A DNA stretch of 43,226 nt, taken from positions 1 to 43,226 of IMG/VR virus record IMGVR_UViG_3300044984_000613; one strand, given 5' to 3'. The stretch's first letter is position 1; the number at the start of each line of letters is the position of its first letter. The position numbers and the translations under genes were made by a program. Source of the DNA: a virus. Shown in pieces: positions 4,071 through 41,322 of this stretch. The notes below the pieces were generated by a model. That model was not told the origin of the DNA, ran no database searches, and worked only from the letters and a program-made list of their open reading frames with translations.

Positions 4071-4078
4071 CAAATTTA
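4071..4078 (-). promoter_or_regulatory. -7 box TAAATTTG, 3 nt before ATG
   Basis: An exact TAnnTTTG on the minus strand, separated from the lipoprotein ATG (4067) by only CTT. If it is a true -7 box the transcript would start at or near the A of ATG and be leaderless. No TTG is found 19-21 nt upstream. Confidence 0.5.
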
Positions 4079-4084
4079 CAAAAA

Positions 4085-7000
4085 TTACTTAGTTAATTTA
4101 TCGTACTCGTACTTGAACTTGGGTCCAAGTCTATAGCCAGATTCATTGTATATCATAGACCTAACCTCAAGAAGTTCCTGGTCCGTCATATCGCCATACA
4201 ACTCATAAACCTTTTTGGCCCTTGCTTGGTCATCAGTTGAGTAGATGATTTCATTGGTACTCTGTGTCGCTGCTCGTTTCTTGGCTGCCGTCATAAATGA
4301 GTCCTTGTAATACATAGCGTCGACCACATTGTCTTCCTTAATCTCGTCTACTCTCTCCTTAACCTTCTCTATTACAGCATTCTTTTCCGTCTCAGTCTTA
4401 GCGGAGATATACTCCATTCCAAGCTCTTTAGCGGAGTCCTTGAGCTTCATACGCTTACTTCCTGATTCTCTGTCTATCTGTTCTAGCTTCTCCTTCTGAT
4501 TGTAAATCTTCCAGTCGGGATTAGTACCCCCCCAAGTTGACTTAGTTATAGATATTCCATTATCAGCTAATGCGTCAACCACTTTACCCACTGCATTTCC
4601 AGCTTCTGCGGTCGACATATCATTATCTAGAGGCACTGCTGATGTTAATATATCAAGAATTGCGTATGTAGCTCCTACAAATAAGGAGGAACTTGGGCTA
4701 GTGATAACCTTTTCTACCGAAGCCTTTAATCTTATTGGGGACAGACCGCTTTTTTCGCCTGTAATTAATTCCTCACTTTCACCATACACCTTACCTACAA
4801 CTTTATAGAATCGCTCCACGTCTGGGTCGTTAATACCCTCATCCATAGGAAGGATTGGGTTATCAGCATCACCCATAAATACAGCCCTTTCTCTGAATGA
4901 GTCGTAGTTAGTTGAGTACGTCATAATCATATTAAAGACCGGAATCGATGATGTGATTTCGGTAAGTGCAACACCAGTAGGCATAGCGTTTTTAATTGAA
5001 CTAGTCACATAATCTAAAAGGTCGTCAGATGGTGAATACTTATCATTCCCAGTAATTAAAGCAAGAGTATATCCGTTAGCGACATCCATAAGCGCAAAGA
5101 ATGGAACCATCTGTTGTGGTTTTGCAATCTTAATATAAGCCCGGCGTAATCTACCCTTATCGTCGGTGTACTTGATTCCAGTCATAATGATAAAGTAGCG
5201 AAGCTTTATATCGTCCGGAACTTCTTCCATATCATCATCCCCGAAATGAGCATTCGACATAGCAAGTGCAAGCATACCAGCCTGAGCCTGCAAGAACTTA
5301 GATGCAAACTTCTTTGGGTTGTTTTTAATATATTCAGCACTCACTCTAAGACCCTGGAAGGCCGAGTTGATGTAAGGCTTAATTAACTCAAGACCCTTCG
5401 TTAGGTTACCCCCCTGAGAGAAGTCAATGATTGCACGTGCCCTACTGACCGCATTAACCTTTATGAGTTCTAATGCATCTCCAGTTGGGTTCTCACCGTA
5501 CTTCTTGTTATACTCGGCCGTAGCATCGTCCCTAAGTCTTTTATATACCGCAATGCGGAACCCAATCTCAGAAGATTCTCCAAGGCTTGACGCCTTATCT
5601 ACTATTTTAGTAAAGAATTTTCTATTATTCACTAGAGACCCAGGACGTCCGTCCGTTGACAGGAAGTCCATACCTCCACCCATCTCCATATACTCCTGGA
5701 AGTATTTGTCGTCTGACTTAAATGACTTAATGCCTTTCCTAAAGTCTCTGAACAAATTATAGCCAGCGAAGTATATATTCTGATTGTCATAAATGTCTGT
5801 GAAAAACAATATATGCCCGAAGTCACGTGGGAAGTTTCTCACGATAAACAATGGGTTAGCCCGGGTGGCAAGCAACTTTAAGGCCGCAGAGCCGGAAAGA
5901 TAACTAATATATTTAGTTGCCCTAGGCCCAATCTCAAATAGTCTATTGGCTCCGTCCCACTCTCTCTTTAGGTCAGTCCTAAGTTGAAACTTAGTGCTCT
6001 CACCCTTCACGAAGAAATTAACATTCTCATATCCCTTATCAGCCTCACCCGTCTTTGACTCAGTCCTAATCCAGCCGACATTATCGGGGTCTAGTGCTGC
6101 CGCATATAGTGCCTTGTTTGCCCTATTCTTAAGTATCCTTGACGACGCGGATGCGCTATAGATTGCAAGTAGGTACCTAGCATCCATAATAGTGTCATCG
6201 TTGCTACCGTCCTTAATTGCCTTTATCTGGTCCCCAGTTAATCCGTAATCACGTATTGACACATCATTATCACCGAAGTCAAAAGCGTGGCTTAGAAACA
6301 CCGTAGGCGAGTAATCGAAATCCTTAATCTTATTATATAATTCATCGGTTATTAACCCGTTCTTATATACGTCGTCAAGTATACTTCTAAACTCAACAAA
6401 GTATGCGTCTGCACGATTATTAAGGTCCTTGAAATTATCCAACTCTCTAGAGAACCTACTCAACTCTGCAAGTGCACCCTCCTTATCCATCGACACATTG
6501 TTCTTTTTATCGACGGTATGGAGCGGCCTCTTTGATTCCTCTACTACTTTTTGAATTCTATTGAATTCTTCTTTGGCAGAATCAAGTTTCTTTTTGAGTT
6601 CGTTTTTCTTCGGAACACTTAAATTACTAGCCATAGAGTCCACCCTGTACTGAGCGTAATCCATATCGGACTTTGCCTTAACAAGGTTTTCTGTAGCCAC
6701 GGCCCTTCTGTCGTCGAATGACTGGTCTACCTCTACTATACGACGTAAGGATATAATTTGATTTAAAAAATCAATCGACTTATTGTTAAGTCTACCAAAA
6801 ATCTTTCTATCGGACTTATTTATTGAATACTTAGCTCGAGCACTAGCACCGGCCTTACTTATTAGATAGTCGTATGCGCCCTCTATGTTGGCCTTTGTAA
6901 TCTCTCTCTTTATGTTTGACTGCCTATCGAAAAGAGAATTCACTATGTTCTTAACCTTGAACAGTTCCTTGTACCAGGGCTGCTGATATATCCTATCCTT

Positions 7001-10000
7001 GTACTGCTTGTATATATTTTCGATGTTAGCCTTAGGCTTTTTATTGTCGACCGAACCAGCGTCTAAGATATCCGCGTATAGTGTTCTAGCTAAGATGTCG
7101 CTGATACCCATTTTATTAGCCATCACAACAAAGTCCTGTTCGTTTATACTTGGTACGTACTTACCATCAATCATCTCAGCATTAGCCATAACATAGCTAC
7201 GGAGAATCTCCATAATGCCCTTCTGTTGTTTGAAAACTCTTGAGTTACTTATTAGATTTTGAGAATCAATCTTTGGCATCTTGACCCTGAATAGCCCTTC
7301 TAATTTTTTGATTGCTGTATTGTAGGTTATCGGGCTCCAAATATTAAAGACAATATTCTTGCCGTCACTGGAAATCGTAATACCGTCTTCAACATATACA
7401 CTTGAACGAGAATCGTCCAATTTTACCGTGTGGTCAGCAATCCTAAATGATAACTTATATTGGGTAGTAACACTATTCAGTCGGTTAGAGCGTTTGATGT
7501 CTGCCTCGAAATAGCGGCTCTCGTCTCTATCCCCAACTTCTTTCCTACCCCTTACATCAGTAATATTACTATCTCTGGGTACGAAAAACCCAAACTCATT
7601 AGCTGGACTATATATCATCTCACGAATTGCATCGTGAATAAATGATGAAGTCCTGTACGTATTTACGTACGATGTCTTTACATCTGCTCCCCGTCTGGCA
7701 TCAAGGCTGTCTCCGTTTTGTCCTGGCTTCCCAAGACCTGCCTGTTTTCTAACCACTGAGCTAGCAGATTCAAGTCCTCCTGTGACAGCTCCACCTGGGG
7801 TGTCTTTAGAGTCACTCTGTAATTCTGTTTGTTTTTCATTTGATGTAAAAAATACGTTTGTCTCTACAAAGTTACGCTCAATGTACGAAATATCTTCGTT
7901 TTTGCCAAACTTTGAATTAAGTTCTTTTTCAGCCCTGTCGAATATTGTCTCACCTTCAGATACTGGTTTGCCTTCAAACTCTTGGATAAACTGAGTTCTT
8001 ATACCGAGAATGTTACCTCTGCTGTCTCTAGAAATAGTAAATCCTTTAACGTCTAGTCCAGACAACATCTTCTTAACTTCATCAAGAGTTTTAGATTCCT
8101 TAGTGGGAGTCTTAAGACCAATCTCAATAATTGGAGAAGACTTATCTGTTTTTGATTCAATAATCTTACTAAACAGGACTGCTTCCTGATTGTACCTCTT
8201 GCCAATCTCTACTATTTTAGCTTCAATTGATGATACATCAGTTCCCTGTGTTACTGAGAACTCCACGTCGAAAGAAGGTTCAGTATAAACATCACCACTT
8301 GTAGAATAGAATTCACCCTCAGATTCATTTACTCTAGATACAACGACTCCATCTACGCTTCTGATAGTCTTGACTAATTCGTCCTTTGCTTTATCAAACT
8401 CGGCCTTGTTAAATGTATCTAAGTCCTTGAACGTAGTTACTCCTGCTTGATAGCGCTCAGTGTTTAGTTTAGCTGCCTCTTCTTCAAATGAAGACTTCTT
8501 CTTTCCTTGGGCTCCAGTCCAACCGTTTTTCTCCCAAACGTCTTTCTCTAAGAACCATAGGAACGCTTGAAGGTCATCAGCTTGCCAACCCAATTCTTTA
8601 GCGGCATCACGCATAACCTTTTCAGCAAAGAAATAATCCCCCCCAAGTTCTCCTTTAATATTAACGGTGTGCTCAACTGCGCCCTCTTGTGATGGATGAA
8701 TTCTCCAGCGCTCTACATTGTCTTTATAAATTAACCTCCTTAAGTATCTAGCGGCCCAAACATCAATAGTAGCCTCTAGAGAACGACCAGTTAAGTTCCC
8801 TGCGAAGTTCTTGGTTTTAGGTCCTTGAGTTTGAGACAGCCAGTTGCCGTATAAAGCTTGAAGAACCTTAGAGCTGTTAGCGTTAAACTTCTTCCCATTA
8901 CTTTGAAGAGGAGCCTCTTCGAATTGGTTAATGAGCTTTCTTTTAGCATCAATAACGTCTTTTTCGGTATGTGTCTTCTTTTTGTATTTGGTTGCGGTAA
9001 GAGCCTCATCGTCAGTCATCTTCTCGATAGACTTAACGTATTGGTGATATGACTCAATTAGAACATCATACTTACCTAATGAGAATTGACGCATAGCATC
9101 AACTGCTTGCCTAAAGTTGATATCTACTGGAGTACGCGCTGAAGTGGCGGCCAACAACTGACCAAACACTTCTATGTTTGCCCCGAACTTCTTCTGGAAC
9201 CAGTCGCGCATTTTAGAGTACCATCCGAGTCCATTCTTAACCTCTTCGTTGGTCATATTCGCTCTGACTTCCTCTACAACTTTAGCAGTAATCGTGCTTG
9301 CCGCGTCAGTACCAAAAAACTCACTAGCCCCAGCCTCAAGCCTATATGGTACTTGCTTTACAGTGTAATTAACGAACTGCCTACCATTATTCTCTTTCTT
9401 TTCAGCGCTTACAACCTCTTGCTCTACAGCCTCTGGATATTTATTATTTACATTTTTAGCAACAACAAGTGCTCCAGCCATAGCTGCTCCATCGGAAGTT
9501 TTGGTAATCTTCTGAGTCCTTGCAGCATCAAAGTCTATAGAGCCCAGCTCGGCAGAAAGCTTTACGCCACCCCCAAGTTCTTGAGCCATTATATTCAAGC
9601 CGTCAAACAGTTGTGCTGTTGATGGTTTCGTTTTGATTCCAGCTATACCAATAACACTCTTTACGGCTTCCATAAACTTAGTAGCGATACTACGTTTAAT
9701 AGAGATGTCAATATCTCCAGCAGCAACCATTGATGCAAGCTCGGTGAGGAACTCATCGTTAGTGTTTTCAGTAACATCGTATCCAGCTAGGAACTTATCC
9801 ATACGGGCTTGTAACTGCGGGTCTCTCTTAACTGCCTTCTTTAGTTTACTTGCAAGACTATTAACGCCATCAGCACCCATAGTGCGAGGAATAATCTCGT
9901 GTATAGCTTCGTGGTACGTCGTGTTTGAAAGTAGGGATGGTATATAAACGTGAATATCGCTAGGCTTACCTTCTTTGTAAGAAATATGCACACCTCTCTC

Positions 10001-12151
10001 AAGCTGACCAGTCTGCTGTTGCATACTCTCTGGGGTGGTATGAGCTATGAAGTTAACGTCAACCCCAGACTTAGAGAATGAGTCAATTACGTTAGCTATG
10101 CTTTGCACTCCAGCGTTTACGTTATCTCTAGATGTTTCATATGTTTGAAACACATCATCACTGATATTCGAGACAAACTGATTTAAATATCCTAAAGCCT
10201 CTCCAGCGGTTTGTTGGTTTACTTTAAGTCTTTTGATTTTGAAACCAAGACCACTTGCTGCTTGCTTCGCTTCTTGAGGTGCTTGAAAAATTCCACCTGC
10301 CTGAGTCTCTTGAGTGCCTGCTCCTTCGACAGGTTGGACTTGCTGAGGGGATTGCCCTTCGACGACAGGACTTGATACTTGTTGTTGCGCTTGGCTATCA
10401 TACTTCTGTTCGATTTTAGTTTTCTCCGTTACCGCTGTCTTTACCTCAGAAGCAAGCTGAGCCTTAGCCTCCGTACTATTTAGCTTGCTATAGTTCTTAA
10501 TACCATCGGATATGGTCTGATTAAGCTTAACGGTCTTTGCCGCGTCCTCTTCGGAAAAGTTAGAGTAGTATGCCTCAGACTCAGCCTGTATTTTCTTCTC
10601 CTTGGATATATATTCAGTTAGTCTTTTATTTAGCAAGTCTTTTTCTTCAACGGATATGCTCTCGTCTTTAATGAGCTCATTGATTTCATCAATCTTATTC
10701 CTAATCTCTACCCTATCCCCAAAGATTGGGATACGGCCAATCGCTGACGGACCATTAGTAAGAACACCCACTGAGCCACCCATAGCCGTACCAACGAATG
10801 CAGACTCGGCTATGTTTTTATAGTCAATCTTATCACCTGCGAACGCAAGCTGCATAACCTCCTGAGTGGTAGCCACGATAGCTTCTTCCAATCCTTCCTC
10901 TAGAGGTTGACGAGCTATTGCCGGAAGACTACCAAACAGCTTATCTCCAAACTCTCTACGCGACATCTTAGCTACTTCTTCTGCCGAACCAAACATTCCA
11001 CGCAAAGCCTTAAGGTCTGATGCGAAAATCTTCTCTGTTGCGTACTCAGCCAAACCAGAGCCAACTGCGTACAATAGCTTTTCAGCTTGATTGTATTTAT
11101 TGTCATCCATCACCTCAGTCCAAGCAGAACCAGTTGCGGTGGTTCCGAGAGCTACGAGTCCAACTCCACCTCCCACGGCACCAACTGCCAAATTCACCAC
11201 TTGGTCAGCCATATCTATAAGAAGAAGTCCGCCTCTACCTTCAAGAGCCATACTCATCGACCCCCTTTGTATCTCCTCGTTTGTGTAACCCAAATTAAAC
11301 TTCTCAGCGTAGTTAGCTAATGCCACTTCTTTTTGAAGTGTTTTTGCTTTCTCACCGAAAGTAGTGGAGCCAGTTATAGAGGCAACATTAACTCCAGTAG
11401 GGCCTGGAATGTTCTTGATTGTCATATCCAAGAATCCATTGACCCCGGCTACCATAGCGTCTAAACCTCTAGACATAAAATTGCTATTCTCGGCTAATTT
11501 CTTCTGCTCGTTAGCAAATCGACTCATAGACGACTTAATGTCCGACTCTATAAAAGAAGTGGTTGACGGATTAAATGAGCCGTCATCATTAAACAAAGAC
11601 GTAGGCGCGACTCCATCTAAGTCAAACTCCTTATACTTTGCGTATGCCTCATCAATCTCTGGTCGCAACTTAGCTAGGTCATCGCTTGACTTTATGGCTG
11701 ATAATTTGTCGGCTATACTGAGACTAAGCTCCTCTCGTTTTACTTGAGCGTTTTCTTGTATAGTGCTTTCAGAAACATACTTAGGTAATTCCAAGAATGG
11801 TTCCTTAGTCGTTGTAGGTTCGAATTCCCTGTCCGCAACAGATGTAGAGATTATTGGCTTAGTCGCCTTACTTACTGCTGACTCATACTTGGGTAACTCC
11901 AAAAACGAAGGCCCTTGAGCTTTCTCCGGCTGAGCCTGACGAATGGATGATTCCAAAAAAGAAGGTTCTTGAGCCTGCGTGGACTGAGATTCCCCACTTG
12001 TAGGTTTTTTTTTTTTACTATTGTAGAAATTACCGGCAAAGGAGATATCTTCGTCACCGTATCCGTTCTTCTTTAATGCTGCCGAAACCTCATCAATAGT
12101 CTTACCGTTAGCGTAGGCCTTCTCTAGAATGCCCTTAAGTTCTTCGTTCAT
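4085..12151 (-). CDS. Giant polyvalent internal virion protein with zincin-like protease motif
   Basis: 2688 residues from the ATG at 12151. An earlier in-frame TTG lies in the promoter box. Order: charged N-terminus with an A12-encoded KKKK (46-49) and three 'SFLE/PFLELPKY' repeats within about residues 60-125; a glycine-rich hydrophobic stretch (about 304-340); a metallopeptidase-like segment with H747-E-A-I-H751 and downstream E800/E804 as possible third zinc ligand; a segment near 1100-1140 with 'NFAGNLTGRSLEATIDVWAAR'-type sequence, unassigned; a long coiled coil (about 1820-1875); a region at about 2080-2290 with 'NPLFIVRNFPRD' and 'IDFSQGGN...KPYINSAFQG', resembling large polyvalent-protein-associated domain 38. 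Such proteins are thought to be carried in the capsid and ejected into the cell. It follows two other ejection-type genes. Domain calls are from memory of motifs; no enzymatic activity is shown. Confidence 0.8.
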   Translation of the reverse strand: MNEELKGILEKAYANGKTIDEVSAALKKNGYGDEDISFAGNFYNSKKKKPTSGESQSTQAQEPSFLESSIRQAQPEKAQGPSFLELPKYESAVSKATKPIISTSVADREFEPTTTKEPFLELPKYVSESTIQENAQVKREELSLSIADKLSAIKSSDDLAKLRPEIDEAYAKYKEFDLDGVAPTSLFNDDGSFNPSTTSFIESDIKSSMSRFANEQKKLAENSNFMSRGLDAMVAGVNGFLDMTIKNIPGPTGVNVASITGSTTFGEKAKTLQKEVALANYAEKFNLGYTNEEIQRGSMSMALEGRGGLLLIDMADQVVNLAVGAVGGGVGLVALGTTATGSAWTEVMDDNKYNQAEKLLYAVGSGLAEYATEKIFASDLKALRGMFGSAEEVAKMSRREFGDKLFGSLPAIARQPLEEGLEEAIVATTQEVMQLAFAGDKIDYKNIAESAFVGTAMGGSVGVLTNGPSAIGRIPIFGDRVEIRNKIDEINELIKDESISVEEKDLLNKRLTEYISKEKKIQAESEAYYSNFSEEDAAKTVKLNQTISDGIKNYSKLNSTEAKAQLASEVKTAVTEKTKIEQKYDSQAQQQVSSPVVEGQSPQQVQPVEGAGTQETQAGGIFQAPQEAKQAASGLGFKIKRLKVNQQTAGEALGYLNQFVSNISDDVFQTYETSRDNVNAGVQSIANVIDSFSKSGVDVNFIAHTTPESMQQQTGQLERGVHISYKEGKPSDIHVYIPSLLSNTTYHEAIHEIIPRTMGADGVNSLASKLKKAVKRDPQLQARMDKFLAGYDVTENTNDEFLTELASMVAAGDIDISIKRSIATKFMEAVKSVIGIAGIKTKPSTAQLFDGLNIMAQELGGGVKLSAELGSIDFDAARTQKITKTSDGAAMAGALVVAKNVNNKYPEAVEQEVVSAEKKENNGRQFVNYTVKQVPYRLEAGASEFFGTDAASTITAKVVEEVRANMTNEEVKNGLGWYSKMRDWFQKKFGANIEVFGQLLAATSARTPVDINFRQAVDAMRQFSLGKYDVLIESYHQYVKSIEKMTDDEALTATKYKKKTHTEKDVIDAKRKLINQFEEAPLQSNGKKFNANSSKVLQALYGNWLSQTQGPKTKNFAGNLTGRSLEATIDVWAARYLRRLIYKDNVERWRIHPSQEGAVEHTVNIKGELGGDYFFAEKVMRDAAKELGWQADDLQAFLWFLEKDVWEKNGWTGAQGKKKSSFEEEAAKLNTERYQAGVTTFKDLDTFNKAEFDKAKDELVKTIRSVDGVVVSRVNESEGEFYSTSGDVYTEPSFDVEFSVTQGTDVSSIEAKIVEIGKRYNQEAVLFSKIIESKTDKSSPIIEIGLKTPTKESKTLDEVKKMLSGLDVKGFTISRDSRGNILGIRTQFIQEFEGKPVSEGETIFDRAEKELNSKFGKNEDISYIERNFVETNVFFTSNEKQTELQSDSKDTPGGAVTGGLESASSVVRKQAGLGKPGQNGDSLDARRGADVKTSYVNTYRTSSFIHDAIREMIYSPANEFGFFVPRDSNITDVRGRKEVGDRDESRYFEADIKRSNRLNSVTTQYKLSFRIADHTVKLDDSRSSVYVEDGITISSDGKNIVFNIWSPITYNTAIKKLEGLFRVKMPKIDSQNLISNSRVFKQQKGIMEILRSYVMANAEMIDGKYVPSINEQDFVVMANKMGISDILARTLYADILDAGSVDNKKPKANIENIYKQYKDRIYQQPWYKELFKVKNIVNSLFDRQSNIKREITKANIEGAYDYLISKAGASARAKYSINKSDRKIFGRLNNKSIDFLNQIISLRRIVEVDQSFDDRRAVATENLVKAKSDMDYAQYRVDSMASNLSVPKKNELKKKLDSAKEEFNRIQKVVEESKRPLHTVDKKNNVSMDKEGALAELSRFSRELDNFKDLNNRADAYFVEFRSILDDVYKNGLITDELYNKIKDFDYSPTVFLSHAFDFGDNDVSIRDYGLTGDQIKAIKDGSNDDTIMDARYLLAIYSASASSRILKNRANKALYAAALDPDNVGWIRTESKTGEADKGYENVNFFVKGESTKFQLRTDLKREWDGANRLFEIGPRATKYISYLSGSAALKLLATRANPLFIVRNFPRDFGHILFFTDIYDNQNIYFAGYNLFRDFRKGIKSFKSDDKYFQEYMEMGGGMDFLSTDGRPGSLVNNRKFFTKIVDKASSLGESSEIGFRIAVYKRLRDDATAEYNKKYGENPTGDALELIKVNAVSRARAIIDFSQGGNLTKGLELIKPYINSAFQGLRVSAEYIKNNPKKFASKFLQAQAGMLALAMSNAHFGDDDMEEVPDDIKLRYFIIMTGIKYTDDKGRLRRAYIKIAKPQQMVPFFALMDVANGYTLALITGNDKYSPSDDLLDYVTSSIKNAMPTGVALTEITSSIPVFNMIMTYSTNYDSFRERAVFMGDADNPILPMDEGINDPDVERFYKVVGKVYGESEELITGEKSGLSPIRLKASVEKVITSPSSSLFVGATYAILDILTSAVPLDNDMSTAEAGNAVGKVVDALADNGISITKSTWGGTNPDWKIYNQKEKLEQIDRESGSKRMKLKDSAKELGMEYISAKTETEKNAVIEKVKERVDEIKEDNVVDAMYYKDSFMTAAKKRAATQSTNEIIYSTDDQARAKKVYELYGDMTDQELLEVRSMIYNESGYRLGPKFKYEYDKLTK
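12005..12016 (-). repeat. A12 homopolymer inside the giant gene
   Basis: Twelve consecutive A on the coding strand encode codons 46-49 (KKKK) of the giant protein. A one-base slip would switch to a frame that stops at about 11872 and give a product of roughly 93 residues. This could be a slippage or phase-variation site, or a place where the assembly is wrong. Confidence 0.8.
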
Positions 12152-12172: not shown

Positions 12173-12180
12173 CAAATATA
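12173..12180 (-). promoter_or_regulatory. -7 box TATATTTG before the giant gene
   Basis: An exact TAnnTTTG lies 21 nt before the ATG at 12151 and just after the stop of the upstream gene at 12198. A TTG at 12201-12199 gives an 18-nt spacer, slightly short of consensus. This box decides against the in-frame TTG at 12175 as a start. Confidence 0.55.
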
Positions 12181-12197: not shown

Positions 12198-13556
12198 TCA
12201 AGAACCTTCTTTTATCTCAAGGTCTGCAAGGACTCCGGCCGGATTGCGGGTCTTAATACTAGAAGCCATAGACATCATATTATCATATAGTCCTCTAGAA
12301 ATCAATTCAGACTCAATTCCTCGTCTCTGCTCATTGCTTATTTTCCCAGGAAAGACTTCCTTACTTGTGTCCGACATATTCAGGGGAGTCTTTGATTTTA
12401 TGATTTTATAGCTAACAATAGTTCCATTGGGGGCAAGAGATACATCAGTTAGGTATAAGTCGTCAGAGTCAGTAAGCTTTATTGGACTATTAGAGAAAGC
12501 AAATGTAACAGCATCTCTTTTATTGCCAGTTATCTTATCAGTGACCGTCTGCCGTGTAGCAGTCCTGATTACTCCAGAAGCTTCTAATTGAGCCTTAGTG
12601 GGCTTTTTATCTTCACCACCGGGGGCTGCGCCAATGGCGGATGCCGGGCGCTGTGACTTGATTCCCTCGGAATAGGCCGTCTCGAAATCCTTTTGTGCGG
12701 CCTCCATAAATGCAGGGTCGTTCTGAATCAACTGCTGGATTGCCGCTGAGTCCGTGAAGCCTAACCTATTACGGTCCAAGTTGTTGGTCTTAGCGTACCA
12801 TCGAGTCGCTACCATATTCAATACCTCCGGGTCGGATGCCATCCTAGCCTTTAGCTGAGACAGTCCCTTCTCTACCGCTGCGGCTGCGTTATATGTAGTT
12901 GAACTAGGTCCATCTATTCTAACACCGCTTAGCGTGTATATATTCTTGGCGTCCTGCATAGCCAACGCCATAGGGTCAAGGAACTTAATGTTCGGGTCTA
13001 CCCTATCTAGAGAGAAAGAGTTAAACTTATTCTGTTCCTGCTGAAAATAAACTGATTGAGATAGTGGTACCATCGCTCCGTCAGGTTCTTGCACCATAAC
13101 GATTCCGTTTTCAATCTTAGTTGGCAGACGGCTAGTAGAAAATTCACTGTACTTCTGCTTCGCGGAATCAGGAGTATCTATGTAGCCCACACCCTTAGAT
13201 GCATTCATCTTATTAACCTCGTCAGTTGCCGCTGCTGATGCGGATAGACCGATACCGAACGCCTGATTGAACTGATTGCGTGATGACTCTAATTTAGACT
13301 TAGCCTCCTGGGAGCCACTGGTTTCGAAATCAATGGCTGCCTGCTTATATGCGTCGAAGGCGGCTTGGGTGGCGTCCTTGTATTTACCCACAATCTTGTA
13401 CTGGTTCTCAGCAAACTGTCGGTCGATGCCCATAGCGTCGGTAAACTTCTGTCTTTTTTCAGAATCTTCCTTACGCCTCTGTGCGGCCTGAGCCTCCATA
13501 GCGGCACCTTGCGCCGCCCATTCGGGTACCTTAAATACTGTAGTGCTTAGAGCCAT
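12198..13556 (-). CDS. Putative internal virion protein
   Basis: 452 residues, mostly predicted helix with an Ala/Gln-rich charged N-terminal part ('AAQGAAMEAQAAQRRKEDSEKRQKF'-like, residues 13-38), then a long helical repeat-poor body. The C-terminal 120 residues look more beta-rich ('DAVTFAFSNSPIKLTDSDDLYLTDVSL'). It lies between the glycine/alanine-rich protein at 13556-14359 and the giant polyvalent protein, the usual place for podoviral ejection proteins such as the T7 gp14/15/16 set. Its ATG overlaps the upstream stop by one base (TAATG). No family was recognised with certainty; an internal or ejected virion protein is the best reading from position and composition. Confidence 0.6.
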   Translation of the reverse strand: MALSTTVFKVPEWAAQGAAMEAQAAQRRKEDSEKRQKFTDAMGIDRQFAENQYKIVGKYKDATQAAFDAYKQAAIDFETSGSQEAKSKLESSRNQFNQAFGIGLSASAAATDEVNKMNASKGVGYIDTPDSAKQKYSEFSTSRLPTKIENGIVMVQEPDGAMVPLSQSVYFQQEQNKFNSFSLDRVDPNIKFLDPMALAMQDAKNIYTLSGVRIDGPSSTTYNAAAAVEKGLSQLKARMASDPEVLNMVATRWYAKTNNLDRNRLGFTDSAAIQQLIQNDPAFMEAAQKDFETAYSEGIKSQRPASAIGAAPGGEDKKPTKAQLEASGVIRTATRQTVTDKITGNKRDAVTFAFSNSPIKLTDSDDLYLTDVSLAPNGTIVSYKIIKSKTPLNMSDTSKEVFPGKISNEQRRGIESELISRGLYDNMMSMASSIKTRNPAGVLADLEIKEGS

Positions 13557-14359
13557 TACTTCTCAAACTTCTTAATTAAACTTCTAACGTATGAATGGAG
13601 CTTTTCTTTATCTCCCGCGCTAGTGAACTTCTTAATGTTAGACATTTGAGTTGGGTTGAAGATGTACTCTCCCCCGGTCATTTCTCCAATCTTAGCACCG
13701 TCCTTCATAAGGTTGATGGGGTTCTCTTTGTGCGAGAACTTACCTGGGGTCTTCTCTATCTTACCGCCCTTAGCCTTAATTGGTACATCTGGTGTTTTTG
13801 TTTTACCTAACGGATTAGCAAGAGCCATACCTGCACCACCAATGGCACTAATACCCCCGGCAATGTTCTGCACCGCAGCTTCCTTGGCCGCCTGAGCGAA
13901 TCCTAGCTCCTGCTGGTAACGACCTTCCTTGCGTCCCATCGTAGCTTCTTGCGCCCCAGCTAACTGAGATAGTGCAGCGGTTTGGCGTTGCTGTTGCATA
14001 TCCGCTAGACCCTGCTGCTGCTGAGCTGCTCCTTCCGTTAGGGCACCTAGCCCACCTAATAGTGCACGTCCGCCAGCCGCACCCAGGGCCTGCGTTCCGC
14101 CCTGTAGAGCACGATTTACGTTCTCCATCTGGCGATTCATAATACCCTGGTCGTAGGACTCCTTGTACGCCTTGAAATACTCCGATGGGGTATCCAATGA
14201 CGGGGCAGACGCCCTTACTCGCTCAAGCTCCTTATTGGCTTTCTTGTTAGCGGCAATACCATAAATGGTCTGTCCAATACCGGCAGCCGCCTGTAGACCT
14301 GCCCCGATGACTGCGCCTCCTACGGCGTAAATTTTCTTATTTGACTTTTTGGGTTTCAT
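13556..14359 (-). CDS. Putative internal virion/ejection protein, Ala-Gly-Gln rich
   Basis: 267 residues. The N-terminus is basic ('KPKKSNKKI') and followed by a glycine/alanine membrane-like helix (about 12-36, 'AVGGAVIGAGLQAAAGIGQTIYGI'). A Gln/Ala-rich helical centre (about 80-150) and a second glycine/alanine hydrophobic segment (about 165-185) follow. The tail reads 'GGEYIFNPTQMSNIKKF...SLIKKFEK', a pattern I associate with virion proteins of Bacteroidota podoviruses. Small membrane-active helices in a protein placed right after the tail nozzle suggest that it is ejected to help DNA cross the inner membrane. It starts four nt after a TAnnTTTG box. Assignment is by composition and context. 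Confidence 0.6.
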   Translation of the reverse strand: MKPKKSNKKIYAVGGAVIGAGLQAAAGIGQTIYGIAANKKANKELERVRASAPSLDTPSEYFKAYKESYDQGIMNRQMENVNRALQGGTQALGAAGGRALLGGLGALTEGAAQQQQGLADMQQQRQTAALSQLAGAQEATMGRKEGRYQQELGFAQAAKEAAVQNIAGGISAIGGAGMALANPLGKTKTPDVPIKAKGGKIEKTPGKFSHKENPINLMKDGAKIGEMTGGEYIFNPTQMSNIKKFTSAGDKEKLHSYVRSLIKKFEK

Positions 14360-14363: not shown

Positions 14364-14371
14364 CAAAGATA
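14364..14371 (-). promoter_or_regulatory. -7 box TATCTTTG, 4 nt before ATG
   Basis: An exact TAnnTTTG between the nozzle stop codon (14376) and the ATG at 14359, with TATT between box and ATG. A leaderless transcript is likely if it is active. No -33 TTG at the expected spacing. Confidence 0.5.
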
Positions 14372-18619: not shown

Positions 18620-19018
18620 TTAGTATTTGTGTTGAAATCCGTGATAACCCCGCTGATGCAGCATAGTCTCAAAAAGGTGAGCATCTATTGGATTTTCAAA
18701 TTTACATATAACTTCAAATCCTAAAATAGACCGTCCTCTTTTTCTGTGGTCATTCATACGACTTCTCATATTATTAGTAAATCCAACATAATGCTCCTCG
18801 GGAAGGTAATATACAGCATATCCATTTGTCTCTTCCAAGTATAATTCCCTAAATTTAGAATTATTTTCTTTTGTCTTTTCTGGATTATTTAATCTATACA
18901 TCTTAGAGTAATCCGCTTTGCATTTTTTGCAAATAGTTTCCTTGCCAAGCGCCGACAAATTGTTTTTGCCGTACTCGTCAAGAGTTTTTTCTATATTACA
19001 TTTCCTACAAGTTCTCAT
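18620..19018 (-). CDS. Free-standing GIY-YIG homing endonuclease with zinc ribbon
   Basis: 132 residues from the ATG at 19018. A GTG one codon earlier is possible, but the ATG overlaps the upstream TGA by one base. Residues 1-40 form a zinc ribbon with two CxxC pairs ('CRKC' and 'CKKC'). The rest is a GIY-YIG nuclease: 'YAVYYL' and 'HYVGFT' give the two tyrosine strands, 'NNMRSRMNDHRKRG' the Arg/His helix, and 'DAHLFETMLHQRGY' the Glu helix that binds metal. It is a selfish element, cutting alleles that lack it so that it is copied in by repair. It sits tightly between a connector gene and the nozzle gene, 5 nt before the nozzle start. It is visibly more AT-rich than its neighbours, which suggests recent arrival. 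Confidence 0.85.
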   Translation of the reverse strand: MRTCRKCNIEKTLDEYGKNNLSALGKETICKKCKADYSKMYRLNNPEKTKENNSKFRELYLEETNGYAVYYLPEEHYVGFTNNMRSRMNDHRKRGRSILGFEVICKFENPIDAHLFETMLHQRGYHGFQHKY

Positions 19019-19830
19019 CACATCTTAGGCGATTGTTTGAAATTCTTCCGAATAGTCTTAAGTGCCTCATCCTTGTTGAAGCTCTTGATTCTAGCGTTAG
19101 CCAATCTCTTCTCGTTGTAGTATTCCTGACGTGCACGAGCCTTCTCTCCCTGGGGGACTGCGTTCTTGCGCTCAATCAGTTTGTAATAGATGTAAGAGCG
19201 TAATGCTGGCTCTGCATATATGTTAACCGATGGGTTAGAGCTCCGCGCCTCGTCGGCTACGTACTCTATAACAATGGTATCAAGATTACCACCTATTGAA
19301 AGCTCGATTCTGTTCTGCTCGTGGTTCATACGGTACTCACCGTTGTAGTGTCCTCCTCCGAGTCCGTATACGGCACCGTATGAGTTATCGTACAGGAAGT
19401 TCCTGAAGATGAACTGGTCGTAGCCCTTAGCGGATTGAAACAGCTCCACTTCGCCCTTATCGTCCTCCCTATCGTATACTCCGTCTCCGTCAGTGTCGAT
19501 AGGAATGCCGCTGGCGTCCTTAACGTACGCCTGAGAGTAGTTTATGTTCTTGTTGTGCCCGAAGATGTATACGAGACCATCGGTGCCCACATATCCAATC
19601 TTTATGATATCTACGTAATCATCCGGAAGGTCAACGGTCTTAAGGTCTTGATTGACGGGTAGCTTGATGCTCTTCACTATCTTAAGCATATCGAATCCAA
19701 ACTCACGAAGTCCACGTAGCGCCAGGTTACGAACTAGCGTATCGGTGGCGTCTGAGGCGAAGTCATCTTGGCCTACGGATAGAATGAAGTCATTTACTAC
19801 CTCGTCGATGGTGATTAGATTCCTAGCCAT
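19018..19830 (-). CDS. Head-tail connector / tail adaptor ring protein
   Basis: 270 residues. The N-terminal helices 'TIDEVVNDFILSVGQDDFASDATDTLVRNLALRGLREFGFDM' resemble the helical head of podoviral adaptor proteins (P22 gp4, T7 gp11 and crAss-like ring proteins), which sit under the portal. The middle is beta-rich ('DLPDDYVDIIKIGYV'). A strand-loop at 112-124 reads DTDGDGVYDREDD, an EF-hand/thrombospondin-type calcium loop (D112, D114, D116, D120, D123). The C-terminus is a basic helix. It lies between the second ring-like gene and the nozzle gene, overlapping the former by one base. The connector role is inferred from fold pattern and order; the calcium loop is seen directly. Confidence 0.65.
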   Translation of the reverse strand: MARNLITIDEVVNDFILSVGQDDFASDATDTLVRNLALRGLREFGFDMLKIVKSIKLPVNQDLKTVDLPDDYVDIIKIGYVGTDGLVYIFGHNKNINYSQAYVKDASGIPIDTDGDGVYDREDDKGEVELFQSAKGYDQFIFRNFLYDNSYGAVYGLGGGHYNGEYRMNHEQNRIELSIGGNLDTIVIEYVADEARSSNPSVNIYAEPALRSYIYYKLIERKNAVPQGEKARARQEYYNEKRLANARIKSFNKDEALKTIRKNFKQSPKM

Positions 19831-24181: not shown

Positions 24182-24199
24182 GGTAAACAATTAAATCTA

Positions 24200-24545: not shown

Positions 24546-24565
24546 TGTTTTACAGCCTATCTGTA

Positions 24566-24873: not shown

Positions 24874-24881
24874 CAAATATA
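24874..24881 (-). promoter_or_regulatory. -7 box TATATTTG
   Basis: An exact TAnnTTTG 17 nt before the ATG at 24856, in the 37-nt gap after gene 24894-25178. No -33 TTG. Confidence 0.55.
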
Positions 24882-25589: not shown

Positions 25590-25597
25590 CAAAAGTA
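25590..25597 (-). promoter_or_regulatory. -7 box TACTTTTG, 5 nt before ATG
   Basis: An exact TAnnTTTG between the terminator at 25603-25627 and the holin-like ATG at 25584, with TATTT in between. Leaderless or nearly leaderless start expected. No -33 TTG. Confidence 0.5.
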
Positions 25598-25602: not shown

Positions 25603-25627
25603 AAAAAGAAGGCCCCACGAGGGGGCC
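25603..25627 (-). terminator. Intrinsic terminator
   Basis: On the minus strand GGCCCCC-TCGT-GGGGCC is followed by TTCTTTTTT. It ends the unit carrying 25658-26342; the next promoter box begins about six nt further on. Confidence 0.8.
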
Positions 25628-26363: not shown

Positions 26364-26371
26364 CAAATATA
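26364..26371 (-). promoter_or_regulatory. -7 box TATATTTG
   Basis: An exact TAnnTTTG 21 nt before the ATG at 26342, just after the stop of the tip-protein gene (26380). No -33 TTG at the expected spacing. Confidence 0.55.
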
Positions 26372-32183: not shown

Positions 32184-35100
32184 TTACTTGTTTTCTAACT
32201 TGTTTACTCGTTCTGTTAATTCCTGTACAGCCTTCAGCAAAATTACGCTTAGGCGAGAGTAGTTGACACCATCCGGCCTACCCTCATTGTCGTACTTAAC
32301 AACCTCTGGGAATAGCTCGGCTACGTCCTCAGCGATTAGACCAATCTCTTCCGATTCATCTCTTATTTTCTTGTATTTTACTGGGCGAAGTAGTTGAACT
32401 TTTGAAGACGTAGACTCAATATCTACTATATCTTTCTTATATCGAATAGAAGAGTTTTCTGTAATTGTACCAGAAACAGAAAGATTCCCATCTGAACCAA
32501 CACTGAATAATACAACACTCCAAGCGTAATCTACTACTTCGAAGGACCTGCTAGAGGCACTATTGCCCCCCAGTTGAACAGTCATTGTTCCGGCGCTGCG
32601 GTCTGCTGCTCTACCTATCCAAGCCTCCCCAGTGTTAGTTGTAGAATTTGGGAATCTACCCATCCTAATGTACTGAGTTCCCGTAGTACCCATAGTAAGA
32701 GTTCCGGTCAGAGTACCCCCTGATAGAGGTAAATAAGAACCAGTAATATAACCCTGACCTGTGACAAACTCTTCTGTGGCAAGACCTTCGAGTGCAATAC
32801 TATTACCGTTTGAAATGCTTAAAGTGATAGATGGTTTATCCCAAGTTAATTGCTGGGCGTCATTATCAGTATCGTAATCAGTCCACGAGGCGGTAATGGT
32901 ACCTCCGTCACCCTGAGTTAGGGTAAGTGTCTTGGTGGTAGTTCCCGTTACGGCAGCAGAGGAAATCCTGTCGTTGTAGGCCGTGTTCCAGTTAGAAGAC
33001 GTTCCTCCAGTAGCGGTAATAACTCCATCAACGTGTAGTTTAGTAGATGGACTAATACCTATACCTACGCTGCCATATGGAACAAGAATTCTACCGCTAT
33101 CATAACCAGAAGCCCCAGTATTTAAAGTTATTGTTCCATTGTAACCCGCAATTATTTCTACGTTTCTCCCAGGAAAACTTAAGTTTCCAGTATTACCACT
33201 AAATCCAACATACCCTGTCCAAACATTATCTTGGTCTTTAAATGTTATATTGCTTCCCAGTCCAGTAAGATTAACAGCAGAACCTGCTGCTGTAAAGTTT
33301 ACAACTGTAGCTGTTGTTGCTCCCCTACCTGTTACACTTGCTAAAGTATCAGTCTCAGAATAACTAGTAATATACCCAGGACCGTTACTAAGCTGGTTTA
33401 AGTTAGTTAAGTTGCCAGATGTCCATACTTGACGGTCTTCCCAATAGAGAATACCATCGGTTCTCATTTCTAAGAACTTACCTACGTTGCCGCTAATGTG
33501 GAATGCAATACCTGTAGTAGTATTACCATACGATTCAGTCCAAAGAGCAGCAGTAGTATAATTATTATTAGTTTGATTTTTTCTAGCTTGTAAACCGCCA
33601 GTAAAAACTGAATTAGTTGATGTGCTTGCTCCACGAGCAGTTACACTAGCTAACGTATCAGTTTCAGTATATCCAGTTATATAACCAGCGGGATTAGAAT
33701 CAGAGTAAGCATTTCTCCAAACTACCGTGTCTTTGTTTGTGTAAGAAGAAACATCATTTGTTCCTCTAATAGTCCATCCCTCACCATATGTACTACCATC
33801 TGTTTGACTATAGCCTAACCAAAGGTCTCTTGCAACAATAACGGGATAAGACAAACTAACACCATAAATAATAAATGCTGTTTTTCCTTCACTATTTCTA
33901 GATACTTCAATAGTGGGTTTGTATTGGGGATTTGTTCCGTGGGCCTCAAATCCAATAAAGCCACCATTCGACTCCGAATTCCAATACCCACCTAGGTCAA
34001 TCTTTGTTTTGTTATTTGTTTCGCCATATCTTCCAAATAATTCAATGGTGAAACCACCCATTTGATAATCATCTTGCGGAACATTAGTCTCGATTACATA
34101 GTAAGTGTATCCACCACCATTGTCAGAACGAGACGCTAAAACTCCAGATGCGGTCTTTACGGGATTATCACCAACGCCAGTAATTTTCTTTTTAATTACA
34201 GCAGCCGCATCAAACGATAAACTGCCGCTCATTGTGTCTCCAGATGCGTTTATATACCTAGAATCAGATTCTGTTTCAGTGTAATACCTGTCATCGTGGT
34301 TGTGAGCAGGTAGAGACTCAAGGTATCGACCGTCGAGGTCTACCGTTACAGTGCCTGTATCTTGCTGAGTAAGAGTAAGGACGCCAGTGGTAGTACTAAA
34401 CGATGCGCTGTTAATCTTGTCGTTGTACGCCGCATCCCAGTTAGACTTATTGTATCCGCTAATGGCCTCAGCCCCACCGAAGAAGTCATCAATCTGGTCC
34501 CGATTGTAATAGTTTGTGTTTACCCAAGATTCAGTGGCGTATCCATTAAGGGCGGTTGAGGTGATGTATGTGTTAGAATCAACCGTTCCGTTTGCTTTTA
34601 AAAACTGAGATGATGTCCCAGCGGGAGTCTTGAATCCAGAGAATGTTATCTTGTTGTCGGTGTCAATGTATCCGACCTCATTACCCTGCCATCTAAAAGA
34701 GTAAATCTTATTGGCTGGGTCTCCTTGGTCTGGCTGAAGACTTCCGCTTGTGTCTGCGTTTGTAATCAATAACGCCGTTGACGAGAATGATGTGGCGTTG
34801 GCTGCTCCGTTTACATCAAGAGTTGCGTTCGGAGAAGTTGTTCCTATACCGACTCTAGCAGACCCTTGCGTGGCAGTAGAGTTTGTATCAATTACCATCA
34901 CGGAGTGGGCCAGAGATGTAGCTGACCCTGAGCCTATATTATTAAGTAGGAAGTGTATCTTTCCGGAAGCGTTACCGCCTTGACCGTGATTGTCTGTCCT
35001 TTCAAATACTAATGCTGATTTCTTATAGTTATCACTATTAACGTATGATTCTGAATAACCAAAGTGTAATCCAGCAAAACTACCCGGGCTAAAACCCCCG

Positions 35101-36896
35101 CCAAAAGACGCTACTATTCCACTTCCATTTACGTCTAATAACTTTTTAGGAGTGGTTGTATTTATTCCTACGTTGCCGGATGGCACTATAAAATTTGTAC
35201 TTGCTCCTATAGAAACAACATTAGTAGAATAGCCTGCTATTGTATTTGTATATAAAGCACCGGCCTCTCTTATGTATACGTTACCGTTAACATCTAGAGG
35301 AGCCGCTGGCACCGTCGTCCCAATGCCGACATTACCCCCAGTAAAAAAAGAGTCTCCAGTTCTAGTTGAACGTATTAGACTTTTCCATATTGAACTATTA
35401 TCCCACAGTAGTATATTACTAGAGACGTTCCAGCTTCCAGTTCCGTTATCAGATGCATAGAACCTAACTCCGGTACTAGGTTCTAAAACAAATAATTGAT
35501 TATGAGTATCATTACTATGATGTATCCATTGATTTCCGTCGTAGTAAATTCCTGATGAAAGAAATACCCCTGCATCCCAAGGTAGAAGTCCGAAAGCTGG
35601 TTTACTAGTGGTTTTTCTTGCAACGAAAGCGCTATTTCCAGTATCTCCTGTGTCTATGGTAATTCCGGGAATAGTTGCAAAAGAAGTTCCAACTGTGAGA
35701 TTTGACCCAGGGTTAGTAATCCCAATACCTACGCTACCGGCTATCGTCATACCTGTTGTAGTAGCGGACCCTCGGGTTGTTACCGTCTGTAGAGTATCAG
35801 CCTCAGACTCAAGATAGCGACCATCAAGGTCTACAGTAATAGTGCCCGTATCCTGCTGAGTAAGAGTAAGGACGCCAGTGGTAGTACTAAATGATGCGCT
35901 GTTAATCTTATCGTTGTACGCTATATCCCAAGCACCTCGGTTGTATCCCTCGATTTCTTCCTCTCCATTAAAGAAAGAATCAATCTCTCCCTTAGTATAA
36001 TATGCATCGTTATGGTTGTGAGCGGGGAGCGAAGTAAGGAAGTTCGGGGTCCAGTTCTTCCATAGACCATCGGACTCTCTTCGGATGAGCTGTCCGGTGG
36101 CAGGTGACGAGATGAGCACGTCGTGAATCTCATTGAGCTCGAAGCCGTTCTGTACCTTAACGAAAATCTCTCCGTTGTTCTGCTGTACCCTCGTTACGAT
36201 ACCAATAAACACCAAGTGAGCGGGAGCCACTGGCTTGTTGAGTAAACCAAAGATGAGGTTACCACTGGTACCTAGCCATACTGGGTCACCAGCCGTAGCC
36301 GTTGACGTGTCAAGTCCCGCAAGCAATCCCTCTGTTACAACGAAAATGTTATCGTTAATCGCTGCGGTTGACGCCGCAAGTCCCATAGTCTTAGATGACG
36401 TACTCTCGGATGCGTTAGACGCAAGCCCAACAATCATATTGGTACCGTTCGACGAGGTGACATAGACAGCCTGGCCCTTAGCTATCGCGACACCTGCCTT
36501 AACTGTGTGTTGCACCTTCGACACATACTCAACCGTAGATAGTGTGGCGTTAACCCACGCGCTTCCGTTATATTGAAGAATCTGTCCGACAGCCGCTGTG
36601 GTGATGACTACATCATTAAGCGCATTAATAGACGATGACGGGGTTAGGAAGTTCGGCGTGAAGTTATGCCATACGGGTACGGTATCCCCCTGCCGGAGGC
36701 CGTAGCGTAGCATTTGGTCGCTAGACGGAGAGGTGATGATTACATCCGAAAGCCCATCGAGGGGGAGTGAACCGATACTGATGGTACCCCAATAAGCAAC
36801 ACCATTACCATCGGTGGATAGCACCTGTCCGTTCGTTCCATCAACCATCGGGAGTGTGTACCTCGTGTTGACATTAATTTGAGATAAAAACTTCAT
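32184..36896 (-). CDS. Second long tail fibre with S74 chaperone domain
   Basis: 1570 residues. The N-terminus (about 1-290) holds a compact domain, 'VQHTVKAGVAIAKGQAVYVTSSNGTNMIVGLASNASES...GDPVWLGTSG', likely the attachment part. Several 'GLSDVIITSPSSDQ'-like and 'LPAHNHxDxYY' repeats follow. The shaft carries duplicated 'AYNDKINSASFSTTTGVLTLTQQ' modules. The C-terminus is a peptidase S74-type domain: S1482-S-I-R-Y-K1487 supplies the Ser/Lys dyad, then 'LLRPVKYKKIRDESEEIGLIAEDVAELFPEVVKYD' and a coiled-coil end. The chaperone parts of the two fibres are clearly different in sequence, so they probably form separate trimers. It starts a unit after a strong terminator and TACTTTTG box, and it leads into the second fibre gene. 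Confidence 0.88.
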   Translation of the reverse strand: MKFLSQINVNTRYTLPMVDGTNGQVLSTDGNGVAYWGTISIGSLPLDGLSDVIITSPSSDQMLRYGLRQGDTVPVWHNFTPNFLTPSSSINALNDVVITTAAVGQILQYNGSAWVNATLSTVEYVSKVQHTVKAGVAIAKGQAVYVTSSNGTNMIVGLASNASESTSSKTMGLAASTAAINDNIFVVTEGLLAGLDTSTATAGDPVWLGTSGNLIFGLLNKPVAPAHLVFIGIVTRVQQNNGEIFVKVQNGFELNEIHDVLISSPATGQLIRRESDGLWKNWTPNFLTSLPAHNHNDAYYTKGEIDSFFNGEEEIEGYNRGAWDIAYNDKINSASFSTTTGVLTLTQQDTGTITVDLDGRYLESEADTLQTVTTRGSATTTGMTIAGSVGIGITNPGSNLTVGTSFATIPGITIDTGDTGNSAFVARKTTSKPAFGLLPWDAGVFLSSGIYYDGNQWIHHSNDTHNQLFVLEPSTGVRFYASDNGTGSWNVSSNILLWDNSSIWKSLIRSTRTGDSFFTGGNVGIGTTVPAAPLDVNGNVYIREAGALYTNTIAGYSTNVVSIGASTNFIVPSGNVGINTTTPKKLLDVNGSGIVASFGGGFSPGSFAGLHFGYSESYVNSDNYKKSALVFERTDNHGQGGNASGKIHFLLNNIGSGSATSLAHSVMVIDTNSTATQGSARVGIGTTSPNATLDVNGAANATSFSSTALLITNADTSGSLQPDQGDPANKIYSFRWQGNEVGYIDTDNKITFSGFKTPAGTSSQFLKANGTVDSNTYITSTALNGYATESWVNTNYYNRDQIDDFFGGAEAISGYNKSNWDAAYNDKINSASFSTTTGVLTLTQQDTGTVTVDLDGRYLESLPAHNHDDRYYTETESDSRYINASGDTMSGSLSFDAAAVIKKKITGVGDNPVKTASGVLASRSDNGGGYTYYVIETNVPQDDYQMGGFTIELFGRYGETNNKTKIDLGGYWNSESNGGFIGFEAHGTNPQYKPTIEVSRNSEGKTAFIIYGVSLSYPVIVARDLWLGYSQTDGSTYGEGWTIRGTNDVSSYTNKDTVVWRNAYSDSNPAGYITGYTETDTLASVTARGASTSTNSVFTGGLQARKNQTNNNYTTAALWTESYGNTTTGIAFHISGNVGKFLEMRTDGILYWEDRQVWTSGNLTNLNQLSNGPGYITSYSETDTLASVTGRGATTATVVNFTAAGSAVNLTGLGSNITFKDQDNVWTGYVGFSGNTGNLSFPGRNVEIIAGYNGTITLNTGASGYDSGRILVPYGSVGIGISPSTKLHVDGVITATGGTSSNWNTAYNDRISSAAVTGTTTKTLTLTQGDGGTITASWTDYDTDNDAQQLTWDKPSITLSISNGNSIALEGLATEEFVTGQGYITGSYLPLSGGTLTGTLTMGTTGTQYIRMGRFPNSTTNTGEAWIGRAADRSAGTMTVQLGGNSASSRSFEVVDYAWSVVLFSVGSDGNLSVSGTITENSSIRYKKDIVDIESTSSKVQLLRPVKYKKIRDESEEIGLIAEDVAELFPEVVKYDNEGRPDGVNYSRLSVILLKAVQELTERVNKLENK
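33310..33426 (-). repeat. Module shared between the two fibre genes, copy B
   Basis: Partner of 28874-28990. A shorter, diverged third copy lies at about 33628-33693 in the same gene ('YITGYTETDTLASVTARGAST'). Confidence 0.75.
34315..34439 (-). repeat. Direct repeat within second fibre, copy 2
   Basis: 125 nt, 111 of them identical to 35806-35930 by my alignment, with no gap and a 38-nt perfect core. It encodes 'YNDKINSASFSTTTGVLTL'-type sequence. Confidence 0.85.
35806..35930 (-). repeat. Direct repeat within second fibre, copy 1
   Basis: Partner of 34315-34439, 1.49 kb away in the same direction. Recombination between them would delete or duplicate 497 codons in frame. Confidence 0.85.
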
Positions 36897-36922
36897 AGTT
36901 TACCAAACTTATACAGCATAAG

Positions 36923-36930
36923 CAAAAGTA
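36923..36930 (-). promoter_or_regulatory. -7 box TACTTTTG before the fibre operon
   Basis: An exact TAnnTTTG 26 nt before the ATG at 36896 and directly after a terminator. No -33 TTG. Confidence 0.6.
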
Positions 36931-36931
36931 C

Positions 36932-36959
36932 AAAATAAAAGGGGGGCCATTGCCCCCCC
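36932..36959 (-). terminator. Strong intrinsic terminator
   Basis: On the minus strand GGGGGGC-AATG-GCCCCCC is followed by TTTTATTTT. It ends the portal-proximal adsorption unit after gene 36990-38147. Confidence 0.85.
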
Positions 36960-36989
36960 TATATTTGCTTAGCTATTGGCAATTAATTG

Positions 36990-38154: not shown

Positions 38155-38481
38155 TTAGTTTAGGTACGCCTTCCCGCTGAATGGGTCGACGAAGGTTATG
38201 GTTAGGGTGTTTAAGGAGTTATATTGGAGGTCTCCAATAACAACATTTTCTGTGGAATCAACAACGACAGCCACTGGCTTCTTGCCTAGATTGTGCGTTA
38301 TGACCCATACCGCCGATGGCATATTTTGCTCATAGACAAAGTGAGCATCTCCGCCGCCTCCGGTGACGCCCTTGACGGACATAGAGGTAGTGGGCCTTGG
38401 TATGACAATAGTATTCTGTAGCGTCGGTTGTTTGACGCTTACATTGATTTGTTCACCGCTATTTATGGATATATCGCTCAT
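38155..38481 (-). CDS. Small fibre/baseplate protein with HNLG beta domain
   Basis: 108 residues. A Ser/Asn/Val-rich N-terminus (about 1-45) precedes 'WVITHNLGKKPVAVVVDSTENVVIGDLQYNSLNTLTITFVDPFSGKAYLN', a C-terminal beta domain met in many phage tail and fibre proteins. The same kind of domain closes the 385-residue neighbour. Its ATG overlaps the stop of the preceding gene (ATGA), and it lies 7 nt before the next gene, so expression is tightly coupled. Probably an accessory part of the adsorption apparatus. Confidence 0.65.
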   Translation of the reverse strand: MSDISINSGEQINVSVKQPTLQNTIVIPRPTTSMSVKGVTGGGGDAHFVYEQNMPSAVWVITHNLGKKPVAVVVDSTENVVIGDLQYNSLNTLTITFVDPFSGKAYLN

Positions 38482-38837
38482 ATCGTAACGTCCTCATTTA
38501 CTTTGAATATACCATAGAGCCACGTCTTCACGGCGCCGGCGTTGGTGCTCTGTAGGTCATATACATATAAACCCCCTTCGATACCCGCCATAGTTGCAGG
38601 GGCCGCAGTGATGGTTAGTACACCTAAGTTGGTGCCGTTGTAGGTGAATAAGCTATCCTCGACGATTGCTGATGCTGAAGTGTCGGTCTCCCTAACGTCA
38701 AGCTTCCAGGTGTATCCGGTCAGGTTTATCACCACGCCGGCATCGTCCTTGAACGTAAGCTCAAGACGGAATGAGTCCCCCTTACGACAGGTTATATCGA
38801 CTCTTTGTGCTGTATCTAGATTAATCTGGGCTGCCAT
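38478..38837 (-). CDS. Baseplate/fibre adaptor protein (BppU N-terminal-like)
   Basis: 119 residues, all beta. 'ITCRKGDSFRLELTFKDDAGVVINLTGYTWKLDVRETDTS' resembles the immunoglobulin-like N-terminal domain of phage upper-baseplate proteins (BppU family). That domain typically anchors fibres, and 'GGLYVYDLQSTNAGAVKTWLYGIFKVNEDVTI' completes it. First gene of the adsorption block, directly after portal, with a TATATTTG box four nt before its ATG. The family call is tentative; the link to fibre attachment is inferred from it and from the neighbours. Confidence 0.55.
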   Translation of the reverse strand: MAAQINLDTAQRVDITCRKGDSFRLELTFKDDAGVVINLTGYTWKLDVRETDTSASAIVEDSLFTYNGTNLGVLTITAAPATMAGIEGGLYVYDLQSTNAGAVKTWLYGIFKVNEDVTI

Positions 38838-38841: not shown

Positions 38842-38849
38842 CAAATATA
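38842..38849 (-). promoter_or_regulatory. -7 box TATATTTG, 4 nt before ATG
   Basis: An exact TAnnTTTG in the 17-nt gap between portal stop and the adaptor ATG (38837), with CACT between. Surrounding bases TTGGTATATTTGCA are shared with the connector promoter. Leaderless start likely. A TTG at 16 nt is too close for the normal spacing. Confidence 0.55.
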
Positions 38850-41287: not shown

Positions 41288-41314
41288 ACCTATTGTTTGT
41301 CCCCAGTTTATATG

Positions 41315-41322
41315 CAAATATA
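41315..41322 (-). promoter_or_regulatory. -7 box TATATTTG before portal
   Basis: Part of TATATTTGCATATAAAC, identical over 17 bases to the element before the connector operon. It lies 27 nt before the portal ATG. No -33 TTG. Confidence 0.65.

Follow-up and report, generated by a model that had tools for sequence, protein, structure and literature searches.

The sigma-ABfr (sigma-A) promoter of the Bacteroidota comprises a -33 TTTG element and a -7 TAnnTTTG element (PMC6847099, PMC9723704). In Flavobacterium johnsoniae, sigma-A promoters have a clear -7 element from which G is excluded at box positions 3 and 4, a weak -33 element, and AT-rich motifs at -18 and -28, with RNA starting 4–5 nt past the box (PMC6847099). 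The box of F. psychrophilum occupies positions -12 to -5 (PMC9723704). Leaderless messages are rare in this phylum, accounting for 5.5% of mRNAs in F. psychrophilum (PMC9723704), and in B. thetaiotaomicron only 3.7% of leaders are under 10 nt (PMC7366714). Elsewhere, phage T4 transcribes its virion genes from late promoters that have a single 8-bp element and no conserved -35-type element (PMC2988020), and the leaderless genes of Actinobacteria and Deinococcus have a TANNNT promoter near the start codon (PMC3160421). For phages of the Bacteroidota, an RNA-seq study of crAss001 describes early, middle, and late modules, with no promoter motif in the portion of the report available to us (PMC8375218), and we found no earlier description of a late promoter class in the open-access full-text literature.

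The window, that is, the whole stretch of DNA analyzed here, is IMG/VR virus record IMGVR_UViG_3300044984_000613 (43,226 bases). Its minus strand carries the terL, portal, tail-fibre-like, and capsid genes, with ribonucleotide reductase genes on the plus strand; the labels “late” and “early” used below for the two strands are inferred from this gene content and orientation. The portal protein is ~31% identical to that of Cellulophaga phage phi38:1 (Pervagoviridae), the ORF at 21555–22895 has a match in phage Calle_1 to the protein annotated there as major capsid, and the hosts of the matching phages are Flavobacterium, Cellulophaga, Tenacibaculum, and Maribacter. Between nrdB and nrdA, a plus-strand gene (1004–1312) encodes a 102-aa stand-alone DnaA C-terminal DNA-binding domain (Bac_DnaA_C, E = 2.7e-14).

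An earlier, sequence-only reading had reported exact TAnnTTTG boxes on the minus strand in 11 short gaps before genes, six of them identical, and all 11 are present as described. The six identical boxes read TATATTTG and lie at 41315–41322, 27 nt before the portal ATG (41287); at 38842–38849, 4 nt before the ATG of gene 38478–38837; at 26364–26371, 21 nt before that of gene 25962–26342; at 24874–24881, 17 nt before that of gene 24566–24856; at 20579–20586, 17 nt before that of gene 19830–20561; and at 12173–12180, 16 or 21 nt before the ATG of gene 4085–12151, which encodes a giant, 2,688-aa protein. Two boxes read TACTTTTG, one at 36923–36930, 26 nt before the ATG of gene 32184–36896, and one at 25590–25597, 5 nt before a gene start that we corrected to 25584. 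The remaining three are TAATTTTG at 24120–24127, 24 nt before the ATG of gene 22923–24095 and probably also serving the major capsid gene behind it; TATCTTTG at 14364–14371, 4 nt before the ATG of gene 13556–14359; and TAAATTTG at 4071–4078, 3 nt before the start (4067) of a lipoprotein-like gene. For four of these genes, the longest-ORF starts (4073, 12175, 25629, and 41317) fall in or above the box, and the true ATG starts likely lie 3–27 nt downstream of it.

The window as a whole contains 34 boxes versus 28.3 expected, so that it is position rather than number that counts. The curated gaps of the minus strand (1,092 nt) hold 12 sense boxes, the 11 above and one at 36904, where dinucleotide shuffles average 1.1 (maximum 6 in 5,000), and TA..TTTG leads all patterns of the form XX..XXXX in these gaps, with 12 occurrences against 7 for the runner-up. 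Gaps hold 11 boxes per kb and genes 0.26, rather than the similar densities that would have spoken against the sequence-only reading. Its estimate that the gaps total under 1 kb holds for a mechanical gene call (744 nt) and fails for the curated starts, where 470 nt of the 1,092 (24096–24565) contain a plus-strand gene. Given this enrichment and the conservation at orthologous gaps, we rejected a chance origin of the boxes. The twelfth box, TAAGTTTG, falls in a stretch (36904–36919, minus strand) that also holds an 8-codon open frame; the box, with G at position 4, is probably non-functional, and the stop of the frame, which seems unconserved in relatives G001 and G003, overlaps the ATG of gene 32184–36896.

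The gap between terL and portal carries a box in 77 of 78 relatives (terL 68–100% identical), nearly always TATATTTG. Orthologous starts were mapped over all fetched loci with near-identical upstream regions merged, and among the resulting distinct upstreams a box precedes the portal gene in 31/31, gene 19830–20561 in 39/39, gene 25962–26342 in 6/6, gene 32184–36896 (box 36923) in 4/4, gene 22923–24095 in 17/19, gene 13556–14359 in 15/18 (at a spacing of 4 in 12 of those), the gene behind box 25590 in 4/5, and gene 24566–24856 in 2/3. For gene 4085–12151, a box is found in 12 of 15 orthologues and two of four distinct upstreams. Conservation is lower for gene 38478–38837 (20/33, with a spacing of 4 in 17) and for gene 24894 (23/44). 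Genes that have no box in the window have none in the distinct upstreams of their relatives either: major capsid, 0/49; terL, 0/28; 19018–19830, 0/41; and 38155–38481, 0/14. The cultured phages elemoE, phi18:3, and phi38:1 have boxes at the gaps matching 22923–24095 and 19830–20561, and no TTG stands 19–21 nt upstream of those boxes.

The late boxes follow the -7 rule of the published sigma-A promoters, which bars G from positions 3 and 4: 165 of 168 distinct late contexts fit TAHHTTTG, and within the window G occupies position 3 or 4 in none of the 11 gap boxes versus six of the 10 boxes in coding sequence (Fisher p = 0.004). Three boxes begin directly behind intrinsic terminator hairpins on the same strand, at 36939–36960 (box 36923), 25611–25627 (box 25590), and 20597–20618 (box 20579). 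The distance from box to ATG is bimodal, exactly 4 nt in 53/168 contexts and 5 nt in 8/168, with the rest mostly at 15–30 nt. The peak at exactly 4 is consistent with an RNA start 4–5 nt past the box, a geometry that would place the first nucleotide on the A of the ATG and yield a leaderless mRNA, as predicted here for boxes 38842, 25590, 14364, and 4071. A logo of the late contexts shows a T-rich stretch 3–10 nt before the box, part of which is terminator sequence, a G immediately ahead of the box in 51%, and a pyrimidine immediately behind it in 162/168; the near fixation of this pyrimidine sets the late boxes apart from the sigma-ABfr promoter. Taken together, an assignment of the boxes as putative promoters of virion transcription units is well supported by sequence. 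A host-promoter control was sought by scanning genome contigs for nrdA and GroEL, which returned no relatives, and the comparison with the host therefore rests on published promoters.

The second difference from the sigma-ABfr promoter lies in the -33 region. The sequence-only reading had found no TTG at 19–21 nt from any of the 11 boxes, in contrast to both plus-strand promoters, and this is borne out: the nearest TTG is 18 nt upstream (box 12173), whereas TTG stands exactly 20 nt upstream of the plus-strand boxes at 3121 and 24174. The former belongs to an early-type promoter (3098–3128, plus strand, box TATCTTTG) preceding a small endonuclease-like gene (3222–3431), and the latter to one (24151–24181, plus strand, box TACTTTTG) preceding a small secreted-protein gene (24200–24520). 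Across relatives, TTG at 19–21 nt occurs in one of 168 late contexts, whereas control windows average 9.6 (minimum 3), and a stricter set of 114 contexts gives one against 6.25. In 13 genomes, the early strand shows a TTG peak precisely 20 nt upstream of the box, with 30 hits versus ~3 at most neighbouring spacings, and 14 of 41 distinct early-strand gap boxes have it there; the late strand of the same genomes has no such peak, which points to two promoter architectures within one genome. A selection specifically against TTG at -33 is not supported, as other G-containing triplets are depleted there too and AAA and AAT are enriched; the late -33 position is AT-rich overall, so TTG appears to have been replaced rather than specially avoided.

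The explanation that we favor, and regard as probable, is that the host polymerase reads the boxes as the -7 elements of late promoters. Host RNA polymerase with a Bacteroidota sigma-A of the sigma-ABfr type would most likely open the DNA at TAHHTTTG and start RNA 4–5 nt past the G of the box, at promoters where AT-rich DNA stands in place of the -33 TTG, together with a T-rich stretch and, in many cases, a G just before the box. A virion transcription unit would begin at each box, three of them right behind terminators, and boxes 3–5 nt before an ATG would give leaderless mRNAs. The placement of the latter is reminiscent of the TANNNT promoters, from which RNA would likewise begin at the start codon; here, however, the genes are late genes of Bacteroidota phages, the box is TAHHTTTG, and leaderlessness is a prediction. 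It would also depart from host practice, as about a third of the late boxes stand 4–5 nt before the ATG, compared with the 3.7–5.5% of the host surveys cited above (PMC7366714, PMC9723704).

The closest competitor, which we consider quite possible though somewhat short of even, holds that these are ordinary host sigma-A promoters read by a flavobacterial holoenzyme that would seldom need a -33, with neither a special class nor a phage factor, and whose lateness would be due to weak promoters, DNA copy number, or position; it departs from the favored explanation only by denying a regulated class. It draws on the fit to TAHHTTTG, on upstream DNA that is AT-rich, like that of sigma-ABfr promoters, on the lack of a conserved phage sigma factor in relatives, and on the F. 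johnsoniae promoters, whose weak -33 (perhaps not strictly required; PMC6847099) suggests that the host sigma-A holoenzyme alone could read the late boxes. Since flavobacterial host promoters also have a weak -33, speaking of a late class may overstate the difference. Against it stand the sharp early-strand TTG peak in the very same phages, the fall of TTG below background in late contexts, and the pyrimidine that follows nearly every late box. The proposal of a late class needing only the -7 element thus survives in part: the boxes look like promoters and are unlike the early TTG-N20 type. It is likely that the late promoters need only the -7 element, but this may be ordinary for flavobacterial sigma-A.

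A more doubtful alternative is that -7-only late promoters depend on a phage regulator for firing, in the way that the TATA box of T4 depends on gp55, gp33, and gp45. The late boxes share with the T4 promoters a single -10-region box without an upstream element; however, the late boxes use the -7 element of the host itself and not a novel motif, and 24 relatives yielded no sigma factor resembling gp55, for which reason we do not file the late boxes under a T4-type system. The profile for sigma region 2 (PF04542) matched nothing in these 24 relatives, whose records may be incomplete and from which a very divergent factor could escape. One of 10 relatives encodes a sigma-70 region 4 protein near the Pfam cut-off (G022 5162–5947; L209:5210–5944, plus), on the early strand; a pattern search of IMG/VR found no homologues at its sensitivity, and a shared phage sigma factor was rejected, the region 4 protein having turned up in this one relative of the 10. 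Another relative, G004, has a helix-turn-helix protein that weakly matches a PHROG labelled “late transcriptional activator” and falls outside the families common to at least four genomes.

The best candidate for such a regulator is a MarR-like protein of ~140 aa with profile matches in 14/14 relatives, its gene lying beside the terminase-side operon (L087:8513–8932, minus; L085:11847–12266, minus; L096:15877–16353, plus; L001:1214–1705, minus; and others) and, wherever it was found in a terL-oriented locus, running antisense to the late genes. The window stops inside terL and so lacks the gene; L001, with a 100% identical terL, carries it. AlphaFold2 predicts a winged-helix fold (mean pLDDT 83.5), and the best PDB matches to the model are mostly MarR-family proteins (probability 1.00, TM about 0.5–0.56). 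The candidate is thus MarR-like in its predicted fold and not placed as a member of the MarR family: 28 members gave no match to Pfam MarR families at E up to 0.1, with weak other matches only, and there is one weak PHROG “transcriptional regulator” match. In 16/30 distinct upstreams, its -7 box faces that of the divergent terminase-side gene a few bases away, an arrangement in which the two promoters should exclude each other.

This position, from which any tie to the late boxes would derive, and the different early and late architectures argue for the regulator, but no conserved operator is apparent beside the late boxes in 168 contexts, the protein might just as well repress the terminase-side operon locally, and its link to the family is structural only. 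For the phage factor suggested in the sequence-only reading, no conserved sigma factor was found in relatives, and the MarR-like protein is a candidate whose role is inferred from position. That a phage factor, best represented by this winged-helix protein, offsets the missing -33 contact and sets timing is speculative. The fuller scenario, in which the MarR-like protein, encoded antisense to the virion genes from promoters overlapping those of the terminase-side operon, lets the host polymerase use -7-only promoters and throws an early-to-late switch, with about a third of the late promoters yielding leaderless mRNAs, we consider unlikely.

It is very improbable that the boxes are signals for translation initiation or RNA processing: many do lie 3–30 nt from start codons, but that spacing varies (4, then 15–30 nt), operon-internal genes such as major capsid and terL are box-free in all relatives, and the boxes follow terminators and match the host -7 rule. 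Least credible of all is a phage-encoded RNA polymerase, for which one could cite the very large virion proteins and the giant virion polymerases described for crAss-like phages of Bacteroidota (PMC8375218), but the box is the host -7 element, the beta-subunit profile PF00562, with a working control, found no polymerase in 14 relatives (PF00940 also gave no match, but its control was silent too and it proves nothing), and Pfam returned only DUF7178 for the 2,688-aa protein.

On the favored explanation, in which host polymerase reads late -7 elements, the boxes would mark early and late gene classes directly in sequence, and the late class would map the virion transcription units across a large group of phages, most of them uncultured. 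Since its reach includes Cellulophaga and Flavobacterium phages that are in culture, it is already open to test. Many late mRNAs are predicted to be leaderless, in a phylum that itself rarely makes such messages, and a candidate regulator gene, MarR-like in nature, is identified.

Two small genes in the region of the late block deserve mention. The lipoprotein-like gene at the end of the late block (3648–4067, minus strand; MFNKLCIILISTLLLSGCSA) has no Pfam match and is possibly a lysis protein. The plus-strand gene 24200–24520, which sits within the late block behind its own TTG-N20 promoter, encodes a small protein with a signal-peptide-like start, and the terminator hairpin at 24523–24542 belongs to it; relatives G015 and G016 encode small secreted-looking proteins at a similar place, with similar promoters.
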